From positions 124,001 through 188,000 of the forward strand of contig NZ_JROO01000006.1 of assembly GCF_000826685.1 (NCBI RefSeq): a DNA stretch of 64,000 nt. Direction: 5' to 3'. Source of the stretch: Streptomonospora alba (GTDB taxonomy: Bacteria; Actinomycetota; Actinomycetes; Streptosporangiales; Streptosporangiaceae). The stretch's first letter is position 1, and every line of letters begins with the position of its first letter. Below are positions 14,469-55,512 of this stretch, piece after piece. The notes under the pieces are model-generated. The model had not been told where the DNA came from. It made no database searches and saw only the letters and a program-made list of their open reading frames with translations. The position numbers and the translations under genes are program-made.

Positions 14469-16541
14469 TCAGCTGCCGATGTCCTTGCCGCGGCTGTGCC
14501 AGATCGACACCACCGAGGGGCGCGGAAAGCCGTTGTGGTCGGGCCAGGTGCTCTGCGGGTCGTCGTAGCTGCCCCCGTCACCGGGGTGCTGGGGAGCGAT
14601 GAACACCGTCTTCTGGTCCTCGGTGATCAGCGGGCCGCAGCACTCGGCGCCGTTGGGCACTCGGGCGAACATCTTCAGGTGGCCCTTGTGCTTGCCCTCC
14701 ATGGGAACGGCGAACAGCCCGTCGTTACCCCACGCCATGCCGTCGGTGGAGATCCACAGGTTGCCCTGCCGGTCGAAGGTCAGGTTGTCCGGCGAGGAGA
14801 TCGCCGTGACCTTGGACTTGTCGTAGCCGGCGAAGTAGGTGCCCTCGTCCTCGGGGTTGCCGCAGACGATCGGCACGTCCCAGCGGAACCTGGTGGCCGC
14901 CGCGTCGCCGTGCCGCTCGGTGATCTCCAGGATGTGGCCGTAGCGGTTGGGGCCGCGCGGGTTGGGCTCGTCGGCCTGGCCGGGCTCGCGGGCGCTGTTG
15001 TTGGTCAGCGCGCAGTAGATCTTGCCGGTGGCCGGGCTCGCCTCGATGTCCTCGGGACGGTCCATCTTCGTGGCGCCGGCCTTGTCGGCCGCCAGGCGGG
15101 TGTGCACGAGCACCTCGGCCACCGAGAAGCCCTCGACGAAGCTCTCGGAGTCGCTGCACAGCGGGATCCACTCGCCCCACCCGTCGAACGCGCCGTCGGA
15201 GGGCAGTTCGCCGGAGCCGTCGATCTCCTTCTCGGGGCTGTCGCCGCGGAATTTGGCGACGTACAGCGTGCCCGAGTCCAGCAGCCCGCTGTTTCCGCGC
15301 CGCGAGCCCTTGCGGTAGCGGCCCTTGCTGACGAACTTGTAGATGTAGTCGAACCGCTCGTCGTCGCCCAGGTAGACCGCGATGCGGCCGTCACGGGTGG
15401 TGCGGTGGTTGGCGCCCTCGTGCTTGAAGCGGCCGAGCATGGTGCGCTTCTTGGGCGTGGAGTCGGGGTCGTAGGGGTCGATCTCGACGACGTAGCCGAA
15501 GCGGTTGGCCTCGTTGGGGTGGCGGGAGAGGTCGAAGCGCTCCTCGACCCTGTCGAAGCGGCGGTTGCCCGAGCGGGTGTCGCCCTCGGTGGGGATGCCG
15601 TAGCGGGCCATGGCCGGCTTGGCGTCCTCGGGGGCCTCCTCGCCGCCGACGAAGTACTGGTGGAAGTTCTCCTCGCAGGTGAGGATCGTGCCCCAGGGAG
15701 TCATGCCGCCGGCGCAGTTGTTGAGCATGCCCAGCACGCGTGTGCCGTCGGGGTCGGCCTCGGTGCGCAGCAGTTCGTCGCCTGCTGCGGGGCCGGTCAG
15801 CTCCATGGGGGTGGAGGCGGTGATGCGGCGGTTGAAGCGGCGCCTGCCCTGGGAGAGCCGCCAGCCGCCGGTGCTCCTGCCGCGCCCGCGCCCGCGGCCC
15901 TCGTCCTCGCGGCGGATCTCCACGATCGAACCGCCGTGGGCGGCCATGGCGATGCTGATCTGCTCCGGGTCGGCGTCGTTGCCGTCGGTGTAGCCCGCGA
16001 ACATCAGGTTCTCGTTGGTGTACTCGTGGTTGACCCACAGCAGCCCGCGGTCGCGGTCCAGGGACTGGAAGCCGACGTAGTCGCAGTTGTAGCCGAACTG
16101 CTTGGCCTGGGCCTCGGCGGTCTGGGCGGTGAAATCGAACTCCGGGGCACCGGGCAGCACCGGGTCGCCCCAGCGGACGACGACGCGCTGCTTATAGCCG
16201 TTGGGGACCTCCACTGCATCGCCGGTTCCGGGCTCGATGCCCTCGAACTTCAGTCGGGGGTTGCCGCGGCCGCGGCCGTTTCCCGGCGCGGCGAGGGCCG
16301 GCGCCATGCCGCCCAGCCCTGCCGCGGCGGTCGCGCCGGCGCCCACGGCGCCCGCACGCAGGACGTTGCGGCGCGAGAGCGCGGCGGTGGCGACATCGCC
16401 GAAATAGGTGTTGTCACTGGTGTTGGGGGCCTGGTGGAAGCAGGCGTCCCCGCAGCGGAAGCGGCAGGTCTGGCGCGACCGGCCGCCGCCGACCGGTTCG
16501 ATCAGCGGCAGTGAACGGCGTCGGGGCGCGGATTGCGGCAC
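14469..16541 (-). CDS. phoX: PhoX-family (DUF839) alkaline phosphatase, Tat-exported
   Basis: 690 residues from GTG 16541, with GGAGG 5 nt upstream. A conserved N-terminal extension carries C-x3-C-x3-C (Cys 26, 30, 34) and NTSDN. A twin-arginine signal (SRRNVLRAG, Arg 57-58) follows, then a hydrophobic core ending APALAA. The body is a DUF839 beta-propeller with VNHEYTNEN, NNCAGGMTPWGTILTCEENFHQYF (split motif) and GNPEDEGTYF. PhoX enzymes are Ca/Fe-dependent phosphatases that release phosphate outside the cell. A PHO-box-like pair lies 139 bp upstream. Family membership is strong; phosphatase activity is inferred. Confidence 0.9.
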   Translation of the reverse strand: MPQSAPRRRSLPLIEPVGGGRSRQTCRFRCGDACFHQAPNTSDNTYFGDVATAALSRRNVLRAGAVGAGATAAAGLGGMAPALAAPGNGRGRGNPRLKFEGIEPGTGDAVEVPNGYKQRVVVRWGDPVLPGAPEFDFTAQTAEAQAKQFGYNCDYVGFQSLDRDRGLLWVNHEYTNENLMFAGYTDGNDADPEQISIAMAAHGGSIVEIRREDEGRGRGRGRSTGGWRLSQGRRRFNRRITASTPMELTGPAAGDELLRTEADPDGTRVLGMLNNCAGGMTPWGTILTCEENFHQYFVGGEEAPEDAKPAMARYGIPTEGDTRSGNRRFDRVEERFDLSRHPNEANRFGYVVEIDPYDPDSTPKKRTMLGRFKHEGANHRTTRDGRIAVYLGDDERFDYIYKFVSKGRYRKGSRRGNSGLLDSGTLYVAKFRGDSPEKEIDGSGELPSDGAFDGWGEWIPLCSDSESFVEGFSVAEVLVHTRLAADKAGATKMDRPEDIEASPATGKIYCALTNNSAREPGQADEPNPRGPNRYGHILEITERHGDAAATRFRWDVPIVCGNPEDEGTYFAGYDKSKVTAISSPDNLTFDRQGNLWISTDGMAWGNDGLFAVPMEGKHKGHLKMFARVPNGAECCGPLITEDQKTVFIAPQHPGDGGSYDDPQSTWPDHNGFPRPSVVSIWHSRGKDIGS

Positions 16542-17242
16542 TGGGTCCTCCTGTGGAGTGCGGGGATGACCGTCGGCTCGGCGCGCGGAGTGATCGCGGG
16601 CAGCGCACCGGACCGCGAAGGGTCGGCCGGACGGGCGGGTAGCGCCCGGCCTTGATGACCATGGCGAATGAGTCGATCAGCGGTGTGAATCCGTCGTGAA
16701 CGACCCGCCAACTCCTCGGCACAGCTGCGGCTGCCCGTGCCACGGGGCCCCGGTCGCATCGAGGCCTGCGGCGGGCGGCGAGGACCGTCGCGGGCACGGT
16801 CGTCAGGGCGGCTGCGCCGGGGCGGCGATCCTGCGCGGAGGTGCGGCGGGCCCGGGGCCGAGGTGCTTCGCATCGCGGGTTTTCTTACCCGCTTTCCGCC
16901 CGGAACCATCGCCCGAATCCCGGTCCGGTCGCGCCCTTCTGAGAACAGGGCGGAACAAGAGGCGCACGGAGCGTATCGAGGGACATACCACCCCCACCTG
17001 TCCCGCCGGGGACCGGCCCGCGTATTCTGGCGACGGACGTGACCTCAGAGGCTGTGAGGTTCGGCTCCACCGATCCCCGCACACCGCACGACAACGACCC
17101 GATGAGCGATCATCGCGCCCGTTTCCTGTGCGTCGTGACCCGTCGACGGGCACGAACGCTCGCGGCAGCAGGCGCCGCTCAACGTCACCGCGGCACGTTC
17201 GCGGCGTGGCGCGCCCCAACGCCCAAGGGGAGTGAGACCCGC
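16542..17242. other. 700-bp intergenic region between divergent phoX and ATPase genes
   Basis: It contains the PHO-box-like site at 16680-16701. Reading frames in the remainder are Arg/Pro-rich with no ribosome-binding sites; I see no convincing gene. A GGTTTTCTTACC-like AT-richer patch near 16880 may be promoter sequence. Confidence 0.5.
16680..16701 (-). promoter_or_regulatory. PHO-box-like direct repeat upstream of phoX
   Basis: On the minus strand, GTTCACGACGG (16701-16691) is followed directly by ATTCACACCGC (16690-16680). These are two 11-bp units sharing TTCAC, which matches the GTTCACC-type 11-bp direct repeats bound by PhoP in Streptomyces. It is about 139 bp upstream of the phoX start. 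Confidence 0.6.
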
Positions 17243-52758: not shown

Positions 52759-53634
52759 TCACCTGCACAGCACGGGCTCCGGCGCCTCGTCCGGCAGCCG
52801 GTGCCCGCGCTCGCCGCCGGCCGCACGCACCGGCACCGGTTCGGGCTCCGGCTGCCCGCCGGGACCGCTGAACCAGGTGCGCAGCGCCCGGCTCCACGGG
52901 TTGGCGCGCATGCCCGGGTAGAGCACGCCGACCGCCAGGCAGTACTTGCTGATGCGCACGGGGTGAGCGCTCAGGGCGCGCAGGATGCGATCGGCCTCGC
53001 CGCGGCCGTCGGCGGACTTGCACTCCACGACCGCCCACCCGTCGTCGGCCTTCGCCACCGCACCGTCCGCGCTGCACACCAGCCCGGTGTCGCAGGTGAT
53101 CCGTTCCGCTCCGGACAGCCGCACCAGGGTGCGGCGCCAGTACGCCGTCTCGACCCGCGGCGCGAGCCCGGCGGGCGGCAGCATCCCGTAGGCCTCGGTC
53201 AGCACCGGTACCAGGAAGGACCGCGCCTGAGCGGTCAGCTCGCGGCGGCGGTCGGCGGGATGGTCGATGCGCCGCTTGACGGTGGCCTCGCGCGCACCCT
53301 CCAGCTTCACCTCGAAGGAGCAGCCGCCGGTGTCGAGGTAGCTGCGGGTGCGGATCTTGAAGCGGCGGCGCCTGCCTTGCCGGTGCAGGCGGAAGGTGAG
53401 CAGGTCGGGGGTGTCGAAGTAGGTCGAGGAGTAGCGGAAGCCGCGCGCGCCGCCGATCTGCAGCACCGCCCAGTCGCGCCGCTCGGCCAGCGCGTCGACG
53501 AGGCGCAGGAGGTCCGAGCGGCGGACGAGGTGCTTGCGGTCCTGGCGGGTCAGCAGCTCCGCGCGGTCGGCGGCCTCGTCCAGCCCGATCCCGGGGAGCC
53601 GCCCGACGGCGGCGGTCTCGGCACCCGGGCTCAC
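52759..53634 (-). CDS. VTC-domain polyphosphate polymerase-like protein (CYTH superfamily)
   Basis: 291 residues from GTG 53634. Tunnel-fold residues of VTC domains: DRKHLVRRSDL, FRYSSTYFDTPDL, a RRRRFKIRTRSY basic strand, CSFEVKLEG, ERITCDTGLVC, WAVVECKSADG and ISKYCLAVG. The Lys/Arg/Glu pattern for binding phosphate chains is retained. Yeast VTC makes polyphosphate from ATP; bacterial members are mostly uncharacterised. Its start overlaps the DUF4956 stop by 4 bp (53631-53634), so both are made together. Confidence 0.88.
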   Translation of the reverse strand: MSPGAETAAVGRLPGIGLDEAADRAELLTRQDRKHLVRRSDLLRLVDALAERRDWAVLQIGGARGFRYSSTYFDTPDLLTFRLHRQGRRRRFKIRTRSYLDTGGCSFEVKLEGAREATVKRRIDHPADRRRELTAQARSFLVPVLTEAYGMLPPAGLAPRVETAYWRRTLVRLSGAERITCDTGLVCSADGAVAKADDGWAVVECKSADGRGEADRILRALSAHPVRISKYCLAVGVLYPGMRANPWSRALRTWFSGPGGQPEPEPVPVRAAGGERGHRLPDEAPEPVLCR

Positions 53635-54242
53635 CGCAGCACCTCCGGCCGGGCCGCCGGGCGGCCGGCGGTGCCCGGGCGCGCGGACCCCTGCGGGTCG
53701 CTCGCGCGGTAGCGCACGTCCACGACCATGGTCTCGCGCACGTAGTCGACCCTCTCGACCACCATCCGGCGCACCGGCGCCCGCAGTCTCCGCTCCAGGT
53801 CGGCGCGCAGAGCCGTGTCGTCCTCATGCACCACGTCGAGCACGATGACGCGCCGCCGGGCGCGACCGGTCAGCGCCGGGTGGTCGGCGGCGTACATCGT
53901 GCCGAGCAGCAGCAGGTCCAGCCCCGCCATGACGAGCAGCGAGTCCGCGCCGAGGGCGTTGACCAGTCCCAGTGCCAGGGCGATGAAGTAGTAGCCCACC
54001 TCGCGCTGGCTGATCTCGTCGGAGCGCAGCCGGATGATCGACAGCACCCCGAACAGCCCGAAGCCCAGCGCCAAGCCGGCCTGCTGGGCCATCAGCAGGG
54101 TGCAGACGGCGAAGATCCCGGTGTTGAGCGCGATGTAGGCGAACATCAGGTCGGCGCGGCGGTGCCGGCGGTAGTAGATCGCGCAGGCCAGGACGACGAT
54201 GGCGACCACGTCGACGGCGAGTGCCAAAAGGACGGTGTTCAC
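53631..54242 (-). CDS. DUF4956 membrane protein coupled to VTC domain
   Basis: 203 residues from GTG 54242 (GAGGTGCGC before it). Four to five membrane helices (VNTVLLALAVDVVAIVVLA; FAYIALNTGIFAVCTLLM; GLALGFGLFGVLSIIRLRS; YYFIALALGLVNALG) and then a soluble ferredoxin-like DUF4956 C-terminal region. The loop LRSDEISQREVGYYF is the family signature. A longer start at 54317 would run almost into the PHO-box-like repeat and is not preferred. DUF4956 and VTC genes co-occur widely and may form a membrane polyphosphate synthase. Confidence 0.85.
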   Translation of the reverse strand: MNTVLLALAVDVVAIVVLACAIYYRRHRRADLMFAYIALNTGIFAVCTLLMAQQAGLALGFGLFGVLSIIRLRSDEISQREVGYYFIALALGLVNALGADSLLVMAGLDLLLLGTMYAADHPALTGRARRRVIVLDVVHEDDTALRADLERRLRAPVRRMVVERVDYVRETMVVDVRYRASDPQGSARPGTAGRPAARPEVLR

Positions 54243-54325
54243 GCGCACCTCGGCTTCGAGAAGTGGTGGGGCTCGATACGGGCGACCGCTCCCGTGGGAG
54301 GGGGCGCCGGCATCCACTCTGCGAA

Positions 54326-54358
54326 GCCGTCATGAACCGGCGGTGAGCGAATCATGAG
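54326..54358 (-). promoter_or_regulatory. PHO-box-like triple 11-bp repeat upstream of DUF4956-VTC
   Basis: On the minus strand three consecutive 11-mers CTCATGATTCG, CTCACCGCCGG and TTCATGACGGC share TCA at the same position. This resembles Streptomyces PhoP PHO boxes. It lies about 85-115 bp upstream of the preferred DUF4956 start. A further TCATGA occurs at 54366. Confidence 0.58.
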
Positions 54359-54513
54359 GAAAGCTTCATGATGCGCTGCGCTGCGGCCGAGCGGGCTCGG
54401 TCCGACCGCAGCGAGACCTCAGGGGCACGGCGGCGGCGCACCGGGACACTCTCGCCGGGGGGCCGCGCCCCCGAGGACGCGCCTGGGGGCGGAAGCCCCG
54501 CCGCCGTTGCGGG

Positions 54514-54831
54514 TCAGCCCGCGAGCAGCTGGGGCTCGCGCCCGTGCGCGCTCCACAGCGCACCGGCCAGCGCCTCGTCGAGTTCGCTGACGGTCGCCGC
54601 GGCGGACACCGGGACCGGCCCCGAGCCGCGGACGCCGTCGGCCACCCGGGCGGTGGCGGTGCGCAGGCGCTCCAGCCGGAGGCCGATCTCGGCGGAGTCG
54701 CCGCCGAGGGCCTCCTCATAGGCCTTCAGCGCGTGCAGCAGGTCGAGCAGCCTCAGATGGGCGGCGTCGGTTTTGGCGCCGCGCAGGGCGTGCTCGGCTG
54801 CGGCGCGGGTCTTGCGAAGTGTGGTGTTCAT
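54514..54831 (-). CDS. Hypothetical helical protein, 105 aa
   Basis: 105 residues from ATG 54831 with AAAGGAGG upstream. Predicted all-helical: LRKTRAAAEHALRGAK, HLRLLDLLHALKAYEEAL, GLRLERLRTATARVADGV. No domain is recognised. It is on the same strand as, and 136 bp downstream of, the Hsp20 gene, so it may be co-expressed in stress. Confidence 0.6.
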   Translation of the reverse strand: MNTTLRKTRAAAEHALRGAKTDAAHLRLLDLLHALKAYEEALGGDSAEIGLRLERLRTATARVADGVRGSGPVPVSAAATVSELDEALAGALWSAHGREPQLLAG

Positions 54832-54967
54832 CGGGCTCAGCCCTCCTTTCCATCGCAGCGGGGACGCCGCGACAGGATCCACGAATCGGAGTGCGGGGCG
54901 GACGAACGCGTCGGGCAGGGCCGTGCGCGGCGGCCCTGCCCTCGCGGCTGCCCCGGCGTGGCGGGTC

Positions 54968-55393
54968 TTACGCGTCGATCTGGCGCGCCTGGCTGCCTCC
55001 GCTGACGTTGATCTTGCGGGGCTTCGCCTTTTCGGCGACCGGGACGCGCAGCGTAAGAACGCCGTCGGTGTACTCGGCGGAGATGTTGTCGGCGTCCAGC
55101 GTCTCGCCGAGGAACAGCTGCCGGGAGAACGTGCCCGAGGGGCGCTCGGCCACGACCATCTCCCGCCCTTCCCGGGCGGTGTCGGCCCGATCGGCCCTGA
55201 CGGTCAGCACGTTGCGCTCGACCTCCAGGTCGATGGACTCGGGCCGGACACCGGGCAGGTCGAAGTGGACCACGAACGAGTCGCCGTCCCGGTAGGCGTC
55301 CATCGGCATACCGACGGGCTGGCCTCCGTCGCCGAGCAGGCGCTGGGTGATCCGGTCGAAGTCCCGGAAGGGGTCTGTACGCATCAGCATCAT
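54968..55393 (-). CDS. Small heat-shock protein, Hsp20/alpha-crystallin family
   Basis: 141 residues from ATG 55393, GGAGG 5 nt upstream. Alpha-crystallin domain (~35-130): [25 protein letters not shown] (split), [31 protein letters not shown] (the final segment contains the G-V-L-T-L motif). The N-terminus has [15 protein letters not shown] and the C-terminus RQIDA. An ATP-independent holdase. It is divergent from an operon with an HspR-like regulator. Upstream is an AT-rich promoter (TATAAA about 60 bp from the ATG). Confidence 0.95.
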
Positions 55394-55512
55394 GGTCACC
55401 TCCAAAGTCGCTCACATAACCTGATGCGAGGAGACGCAGGTTTTATACCACGAACCCGAGAGAATAAACATCACGGACGCTGAGAAAGTTTCAATCCTGG
55501 GCAGGAGGAAAC

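Follow-up and report, generated by a model that had tools for sequence, protein, structure and literature searches.

Streptomonospora alba carries, within a stretch of 64,000 nucleotides of contig NZ_JROO01000006.1 (hereafter the window, G000:C68:124001-188000, where G000 is this draft genome of 5.9 Mb), two adjacent genes for a DUF4956 membrane protein and a VTC-domain protein, preceded by a direct repeat of three TCA units. Our comparisons indicate that this repeat matches the predicted operator of a two-component system (TCS) distinct from the phosphate one. Probably, an autoregulated TCS of the OmpR family, with activation of the DUF4956-VTC operon as its main role, uses the repeat as its operator. 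The features on which this proposal rests are as follows.

52759-53634, strand -: VTC-domain protein of 291 aa, probable polyphosphate polymerase (PF09359, 83 bits against a gathering score of 23)
53631-54242, strand -: DUF4956 membrane protein of 203 aa with a GTG start (PF16316, 195 bits, above the Pfam cut-off)
54316-54321, strand -: -10-like element CAGAGT, 9 bp beyond the 41-bp operator
54331-54371, strand -: 41-bp operator TCATGAAGCTTTCCTCATGATTCGCTCACCGCCGGTTCATG, with the form ATGA-N7-YTCAY-N6-YTCA-N7-YTCAT, predicted site for the OmpR-family regulator G000:C44:21620-22279
54332-54358, strand -: three 11-bp TCA units CTCATGATTCGCTCACCGCCGGTTCAT, the sole exact match to YTCAY-N6-YTCAY-N6-YTCAY in the genome
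54366-54369, strand -: upstream ATGA element of the operator, invariant in a six-species alignment
G000:C44:19835-22279: TCS operon, apparently of three genes (exported protein, histidine kinase, response regulator)
G000:C44:21620-22279: OmpR-family response regulator, third gene of the TCS operon

The two genes of the pair share 4 bp (53631-53634), as an initial annotation of the window had pointed out, and given this overlap they look like one operon. Conservation (alignment A1, n = 19) places the start of DUF4956 at the GTG at 54242, and a longer open frame from 54317 was rejected. The nearest named relatives by DUF4956 similarity are Streptomonospora species, and no VTC match besides this protein was found in the genome.

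The repeat, its operator core and the linked regulator

The initial annotation had described three TCA units at 11-bp spacing upstream of DUF4956, and we confirm them on the minus strand, at 54332-54358; the repeat, however, extends beyond that description, with an ATGA element upstream and a -10-like element at constant spacing. The triple YTCAY pattern is unique in the 5.9-Mb genome, and the reversed-pattern control has no match. It is likewise present at the DUF4956 promoter of three genomes of the same genus (G002, G003 and G004), one of which (G003) contains two further, mutually overlapping matches elsewhere, and it has no match in G001 and G005, which are of the same genus and lack DUF4956. 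Across 60 genomes there were 101 matches in 42 genomes, versus 12 in the reversed control; these sit mostly away from DUF4956, and the triple alone is therefore less specific than in the own genome. Ungapped comparison of the window with three relatives gave 17–19 identical bases out of 60 upstream of the operator, 31–33 out of 41 inside it and 24–31 out of 50 downstream. In a six-species alignment we counted 27 invariant columns, among them those of ATGA and of all three TCA units, together with two positions of the -10 element. The repeat thus represents a conserved element of the promoter.

No regulator was found among the nine frames scanned next to the window pair, and the genome's 24 Trans_reg_C matches all fall outside the window (the only one in contig C68 is at 232615), so that a candidate regulator was sought elsewhere in the genome. 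An OmpR-family regulator gene ends immediately upstream of DUF4956 in genomes G008 and G031, although in G031 it is only a 58-aa fragment at the contig edge, and a TCS lies directly upstream of DUF4956, or ca. 2 kb away, in G008, G031 and G030. The S. alba orthologue of this regulator, with 67% identity, is encoded in contig C44; the next regulator of the genome shows 42%. It contains domains PF00072 and PF00486 (Trans_reg_C), and its partner kinase shows the HAMP-HisKA-HATPase architecture (PF00672, PF00512, PF02518). Their presence in a single operon identifies them, by domain content, as a TCS of the OmpR/PhoB family. The best NCBIfam matches were TIGR01387 for the regulator (214 bits, cut-off 279.2) and TIGR01386 for the kinase (210 bits, cut-off 292.55); membership in the CzcRS/CopRS heavy-metal systems was thus rejected, because both scores are below the curated cut-offs.

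The first gene of the TCS operon encodes a 101-aa protein (L143 3336-3641) with an N-terminal hydrophobic stretch, identified by eye, and the C-terminal poly-Asp tail DDDDDDVGEDDDDDDDADGDDD, and without any Pfam or NCBIfam match. A small poly-Asp protein opens the TCS operon in 14 of the 15 genomes inspected, with G013 as the exception; these were 15 of the 17 genomes containing the regulator (threshold E ≤ 1e-70), G038 and G039 being left out, and the acidic tail is present in G002, G021 and G026.

The operator core ATGA-N7-YTCAY-N6-YTCA has two exact matches in the own genome, one at the DUF4956 promoter and the other ahead of the TCS operon, at C44:19773-19798 (41-bp operator C44:19771-19811). 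With one mismatch tolerated, a single further site appears, and the reversed control then yields three. In the 60 genomes we retrieved 61 exact matches from 30 genomes, versus three in the reversed control. Of the 17 regulator genomes, 15 have the exact core ahead of the regulator, at a distance of 125–2059 bp, and the remaining two contain inexact sites (5.1 bits in G021 and 26.7 bits in G030); it also occurs just 3' of the regulator in four genomes and at the DUF4956 promoter in seven.

Beside regulator orthologues in other genera, similar repeats stand ahead of quite different genes. The DNA 3' of 17 regulator loci, nine with a site and eight without, served as the pool for a 41-bp operator matrix, built from eight non-DUF4956 sites picked by eye and excluding the ninth, the DUF4956 promoter of G008. 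Over the window (127,920 positions), the top match of this matrix was 54331-54371, with 30.8 bits, and the next independent one reached 6.5 bits; the promoter of the own TCS, outside the training set, scored 27.9 bits. A second matrix, derived from eight DUF4956 promoters, found its best match at most 382 bp 3' of the regulator in nine of the 17 regulator loci (15.2–33.3 bits), one of these being the DUF4956 promoter of G008, outside the training set.

For co-occurrence we used the 14 genomes whose DUF4956 neighbour matches the window VTC, leaving out four of the 18 DUF4956 genomes, which contain only a more distant DUF4956. All nine genomes with the window-type pair and the regulator (in G031 as a fragment) contain the operator at DUF4956, and it is absent there from all five with the pair and without a regulator at E ≤ 1e-70 (G011, G015, G017, G035 and G054). 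The corresponding one-sided value is 5e-4, ignoring kinship among related genomes that are not independent.

Nine bases past the operator, at the offset of the -10 element, A is found in 18 and T in all of the 19 DUF4956 and other target promoters that were tabulated. An operator that abuts the -10 at a fixed distance is the arrangement of class II activators, and it is from this likeness that we infer activation. A direct-repeat operator beside the -10, found here also at the TCS's own promoter, is a feature of OmpR/PhoB-family systems.

Several observations weigh against this proposal. The DUF4956-trained matrix assigns just 13.9 bits to the own TCS promoter, a score equalled by an unrelated locus of the same genome (L042), and 11.0 bits to a pstS locus (L074), over its PHO box. 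The training sites of the operator matrix were chosen by eye beside the regulator, and the own genome, searched by pattern, may hold weaker sites. The third unit (YTCA) is absent from all 13 tabulated TCS promoters, in which the -10 element is shifted or less clear. Additionally, 35 of the 61 exact core matches lie away from both the regulator and DUF4956; among 19 loci inspected, two of these other matches (L155 and L178) precede a small Asp-rich exported protein like the one that opens the TCS operon, and several low-scoring matches are probably due to chance. Genome G054 contains the pair without the operator there, yet it has exact operators elsewhere, one of them before an Asp-rich exported protein, and the link between regulator, operator and pair is therefore not universal; likewise, the class of genomes without regulator depends on the E-value limit. 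As for the proteins, the DUF4956 model is poor and a fold search gave no PDB match at E ≤ 0.001, and PPK1 is also present in the genome, so VTC need not be the main source of polyphosphate.

In the mechanism that we propose, an extracytoplasmic signal would activate the histidine kinase, and the phosphorylated regulator would bind the 11-bp units head-to-tail beside the -10 element and recruit RNA polymerase by class II activation. DUF4956 would then serve as the membrane anchor of the VTC polymerase, and polyphosphate would be made from ATP by the two proteins together and perhaps threaded across the membrane, in the manner of the eukaryotic VTC complex. This response would stand apart from the Pho regulon. 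Our leading guess for the signal is an envelope or cation stimulus, because the nearest named subfamily of the kinase is CzcS/CopS-like, below the cut-off.

Upstream of the pair, also on the minus strand, there are a small open frame without Pfam match (54514-54882) and an HSP20 gene (54968-55405). In Streptomonospora sp. PA3 (G004:C21:140524-141026; L015 5001-5509) the DUF4956 gene is broken across two frames, from an assembly error or a real break, and its VTC gene and operator seem intact.

Phosphate control and repression as alternatives

The initial annotation read the repeat as PHO-box-like, and the corresponding alternative, that PhoP (of the RegX3 type) switches on DUF4956-VTC at low phosphate, now seems extremely unlikely to us. 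The 11-bp phasing, the TCA units and the distance to the -10 are all PHO-box-like. That reading was nevertheless not borne out by a PHO matrix, for which we used the pstS promoters of 16 relatives, the closest of which carry GTTCAYYCTnC twice, and excluded the own genome: its best score at the DUF4956 promoter was -1.0 bits (rank 34 of 127,958 window positions), versus 33.8 bits for the held-out pstS box of the own genome and 10.8–35.0 bits in leave-one-out tests over the 16 promoters. A search of the PPK1 locus gave no PHO-type site (best 1.0 bits).

Phosphate control also draws on a PhoX gene, for which the initial annotation claimed a site similar to that of DUF4956:

14469-16541, strand -: PhoX alkaline phosphatase gene, from the reading frame scan
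16680-16701, strand -: weak PHO-like site GTTCACGACGGATTCACACCGC, 3.9 bits, rank 12 of 127,958, ca. 140 bp upstream of the PhoX open frame

The gene is real, but the site is a weak PHO-like match and differs from the DUF4956 motif. A relative's pstS locus (L074) scores 11.0 bits over its PHO box with the DUF4956-trained operator matrix, which makes the operator and PHO motifs related in kind; the other 29 of 30 pstS loci, however, do not exceed 7.4 bits. Against phosphate control stands, moreover, the identical operator core at the own promoter of a different TCS. The phosphate-type regulator of the genome is L043 (contig C61), whose nearest PDB entry is RegX3 (353 bits), and it is a separate gene from the operator-linked regulator. 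The pstS-linked regulator L041, with a receiver that we take to be atypical and GlnR-like, was considered as PhoP and rejected, the RegX3-type regulator being L043 instead. Since the operator-linked TCS differs from the phosphate system, phosphate storage is only a putative purpose of the pair.

The operator also contains the palindrome ATCATGA-N8-TCATGAT, with both arms perfect in the window, which could be read as the site of a TetR-type repressor, the direct repeats being secondary. In Nocardiopsis potens the gene immediately preceding DUF4956 is TetR-like, as labelled by eye and without family search (L009, 4129-4833), and a homologue occupies the same position in N. suaedae (L017, 3983-4822). 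In S. mangrovi and N. trehalosi, however, the palindrome is imperfect while ATGA and the three TCA units are invariant; furthermore, the 41-bp operator also occurs at unrelated genes beside the TCS, and none of the nine neighbouring reading frames scanned matches the TetR family. We consider repression through this palindrome very unlikely, and favour direct-repeat recognition by the OmpR-family regulator.

The VTC and DUF4956 proteins

The structural model of the VTC protein (pLDDT 80.7) retrieved with Foldseek, in ranks 1 to 11, only structures of the VTC complex or of eukaryotic polyphosphate polymerases, such as 8i6v_E (E = 1.2e-10; query-length TM-score 0.56; rmsd 6.3) and 3g3q_A (E = 2.5e-10; 0.55; 6.6). 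The modelled protein is thus of the Vtc4-like tunnel (TTM) fold, and these best structural matches support the connection of VTC with polyphosphate made in the initial annotation. A sequence-profile search of the PDB with VTC gave no chain at E ≤ 1. All 20 homologues compared share residues R95, R97 and E204, which may correspond to R264, R266 and E426 of Vtc4, the residues changed elsewhere to inactivate the enzyme (PMC9911596).

An unlikely variant keeps the proposed control by the TCS and has VTC bind or degrade polyphosphate or another triphosphate, without synthesis, as its tunnel metalloenzyme fold would allow. Indeed, the fold search retrieved, at lower rank, other members of the tunnel metalloenzyme fold, ygiF and thiamine triphosphatases among them, a polyphosphate kinase is already supplied by PPK1, and the literature passages covered contain no enzyme test of a bacterial VTC. 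Nevertheless, the eleven top structural matches are all VTC-complex or eukaryotic polyphosphate polymerase structures, VTC is the sole Pfam match of the window protein, and the basic and acidic residues that potentially line the tunnel are invariant in the 20 homologues. Synthesis under control of the TCS thus remains our preferred reading.

DUF4956 was modelled with low confidence (mean pLDDT 67.7, pTM 0.42) as five long helices followed by a C-terminal beta-alpha-beta-beta domain. Its sequence-profile search of the PDB yielded three matches at E 0.74–1.5, which we took as chance.

A probable second regulator and comparison with known systems

A different repeat, TTA-N8-TTA-N8-TTAAC, occupies the DUF4956 promoter in 12 of 12 loci from nine Glycomyces species, Allosalinactinospora, a Nocardiopsaceae isolate and one metagenome genome. 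In the Glycomyces-type loci the pair is convergent to another OmpR-family TCS, whose regulators are 33–38% identical to the first one (Pfam domains were checked in L003 only). When leave-one-out TTA matrices were applied, the highest-scoring site other than that at the DUF4956 promoter was just upstream of the second regulator in all 11 loci counted (4.2–23.6 bits), L006 ending before this region. A small divergent gene of a single family, exported as judged by eye, starts at the regulator-side TTA site in ten of these 11 loci; in L003 (9108-9650) and its Glycomyces counterparts, it encodes a small apparently exported protein divergent to the second TCS, with the TTA repeats in between. Because TTA repeats occur at both the pair and the second TCS, the same pair appears to be placed under two different two-component systems. 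Two different TCSs thus accompany this one pair, adjoining it or lying upstream depending on the lineage, which hints at a role for the pair in an envelope response and not in phosphate homeostasis.

Poly-Asp, like polyphosphate, is a polyanion. The TCS carries a poly-Asp exported protein, and its operator in related genera precedes either long Asp-rich proteins whose C terminus is of the sorting type or DUF4956-VTC; for this reason the TCS might be a surface-polyanion switch, in which DUF4956-VTC would make and export polyphosphate to the cell surface in response to an envelope or cation signal, interchangeably with the poly-Asp protein and not as a phosphorus store. We regard this only as a tentative and rather doubtful extension. 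In genomes without the window-type pair, an Asp-rich protein follows the operator 3' of the regulator in G021, G032 and G033, and the same occurs in G014, which does have the pair and whose Asp-rich protein shows a weak match to the GVDTG sorting domain (23.6 bits, cut-off 29). In genomes without the pair, this operator can also precede a DUF1611-like protein (G001, G012 and G026, with a Pfam match below cut-off in the last), or a sodium:sulfate/DASS-type symporter (G009).

The DUF1611-like P-loop protein recurs beside the operator (L130 2352-3431, L131, L133, L196 and L198). An extra operator lies ahead of an operon that appears by eye to be kinase-like in G002, G003 and G013 (L196, L197 and L198), and two of these, G002 and G013, have the DUF1611-like gene next after it, carrying its own operator.

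The VTC domain and tunnel fold of the window protein are shared with the eukaryotic VTC complex (Vtc4/Vtc3/Vtc1), in which a catalytic domain acts with membrane subunits and, according to the passages cited, synthesis is coupled to translocation through a membrane channel (PMC9911596). Unlike in that complex, only the VTC domain was found in the window protein, its neighbour is DUF4956 instead of Vtc1, and its proposed control is transcriptional, by a TCS. In the Gram-positive Pel clusters, as covered by the cited text, DUF4956 is found beside a poly-phosphate polymerase, together with CotH, in streptococcal, clostridial and bifidobacterial loci (PMC7112168). There, DUF4956 and the polymerase are an accessory group of an exopolysaccharide locus, whereas the window contains a two-gene operon with a separate regulator, and no CotH was found among the 19 window reading frames scanned. 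A DUF4956 gene of Bacteroides thetaiotaomicron (BT3498-99, DUF4956 and DUF2490) is included in an iron stimulon table (PMC10434189) and, as proposed for the window gene, is under environmental control; however, it is paired with DUF2490, not VTC, and the passage, a transcriptome table, gives neither regulator nor site.

Among bacterial regulators, PolS-PolR of Microlunatus phosphovorus is, like the proposed system, an actinobacterial TCS for polyphosphate genes; in the cited passages PolR recognises the PHO-box-like GTTCACnnnnnGTTCaC and binds ppk, ppgk, pstS and pit (PMC6754071). The window system differs in its operator, ATGA-N7-YTCAY-N6-YTCA, and in its target, VTC. Indeed, the PolR site GTTCAC-N5-GTTCAC is absent from the DUF4956 promoter read by eye, where the best score with the PHO-type matrix is -1.0. 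The PHO box of the Pho regulon likewise consists of 11-nucleotide direct repeat units, as in the DUF4956 operator, and GTTCACC is its most conserved motif in Streptomyces coelicolor according to the passage cited (PMC4415409). Unlike a PHO box, with two or more adjacent units near GTTCACC, the DUF4956 site fails the PHO matrix. The CzcR/CopR- and PmrA-type OmpR-family regulators give the best NCBIfam matches of the TCS, with scores under the cut-offs; unlike these types, the TCS operon includes a poly-Asp exported protein, and its proposed target is VTC.

PPK1, with one match in the same genome as VTC, is described as the main bacterial polyphosphate enzyme in the consulted part of a 2023 review (PMC10657179). 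We found no regulator for the bacterial VTC-DUF4956 pair among the matches listed in the open-access literature, mostly at the level of titles and abstracts. If a TCS has no more than two exact sites in the genome, the physiological signal of a bacterial VTC would become directly findable, because the condition that activates the kinase would be the condition under which the cell wants the polymer. The operator would thus provide a precise and testable lead on the purpose of bacterial VTC polyphosphate enzymes.

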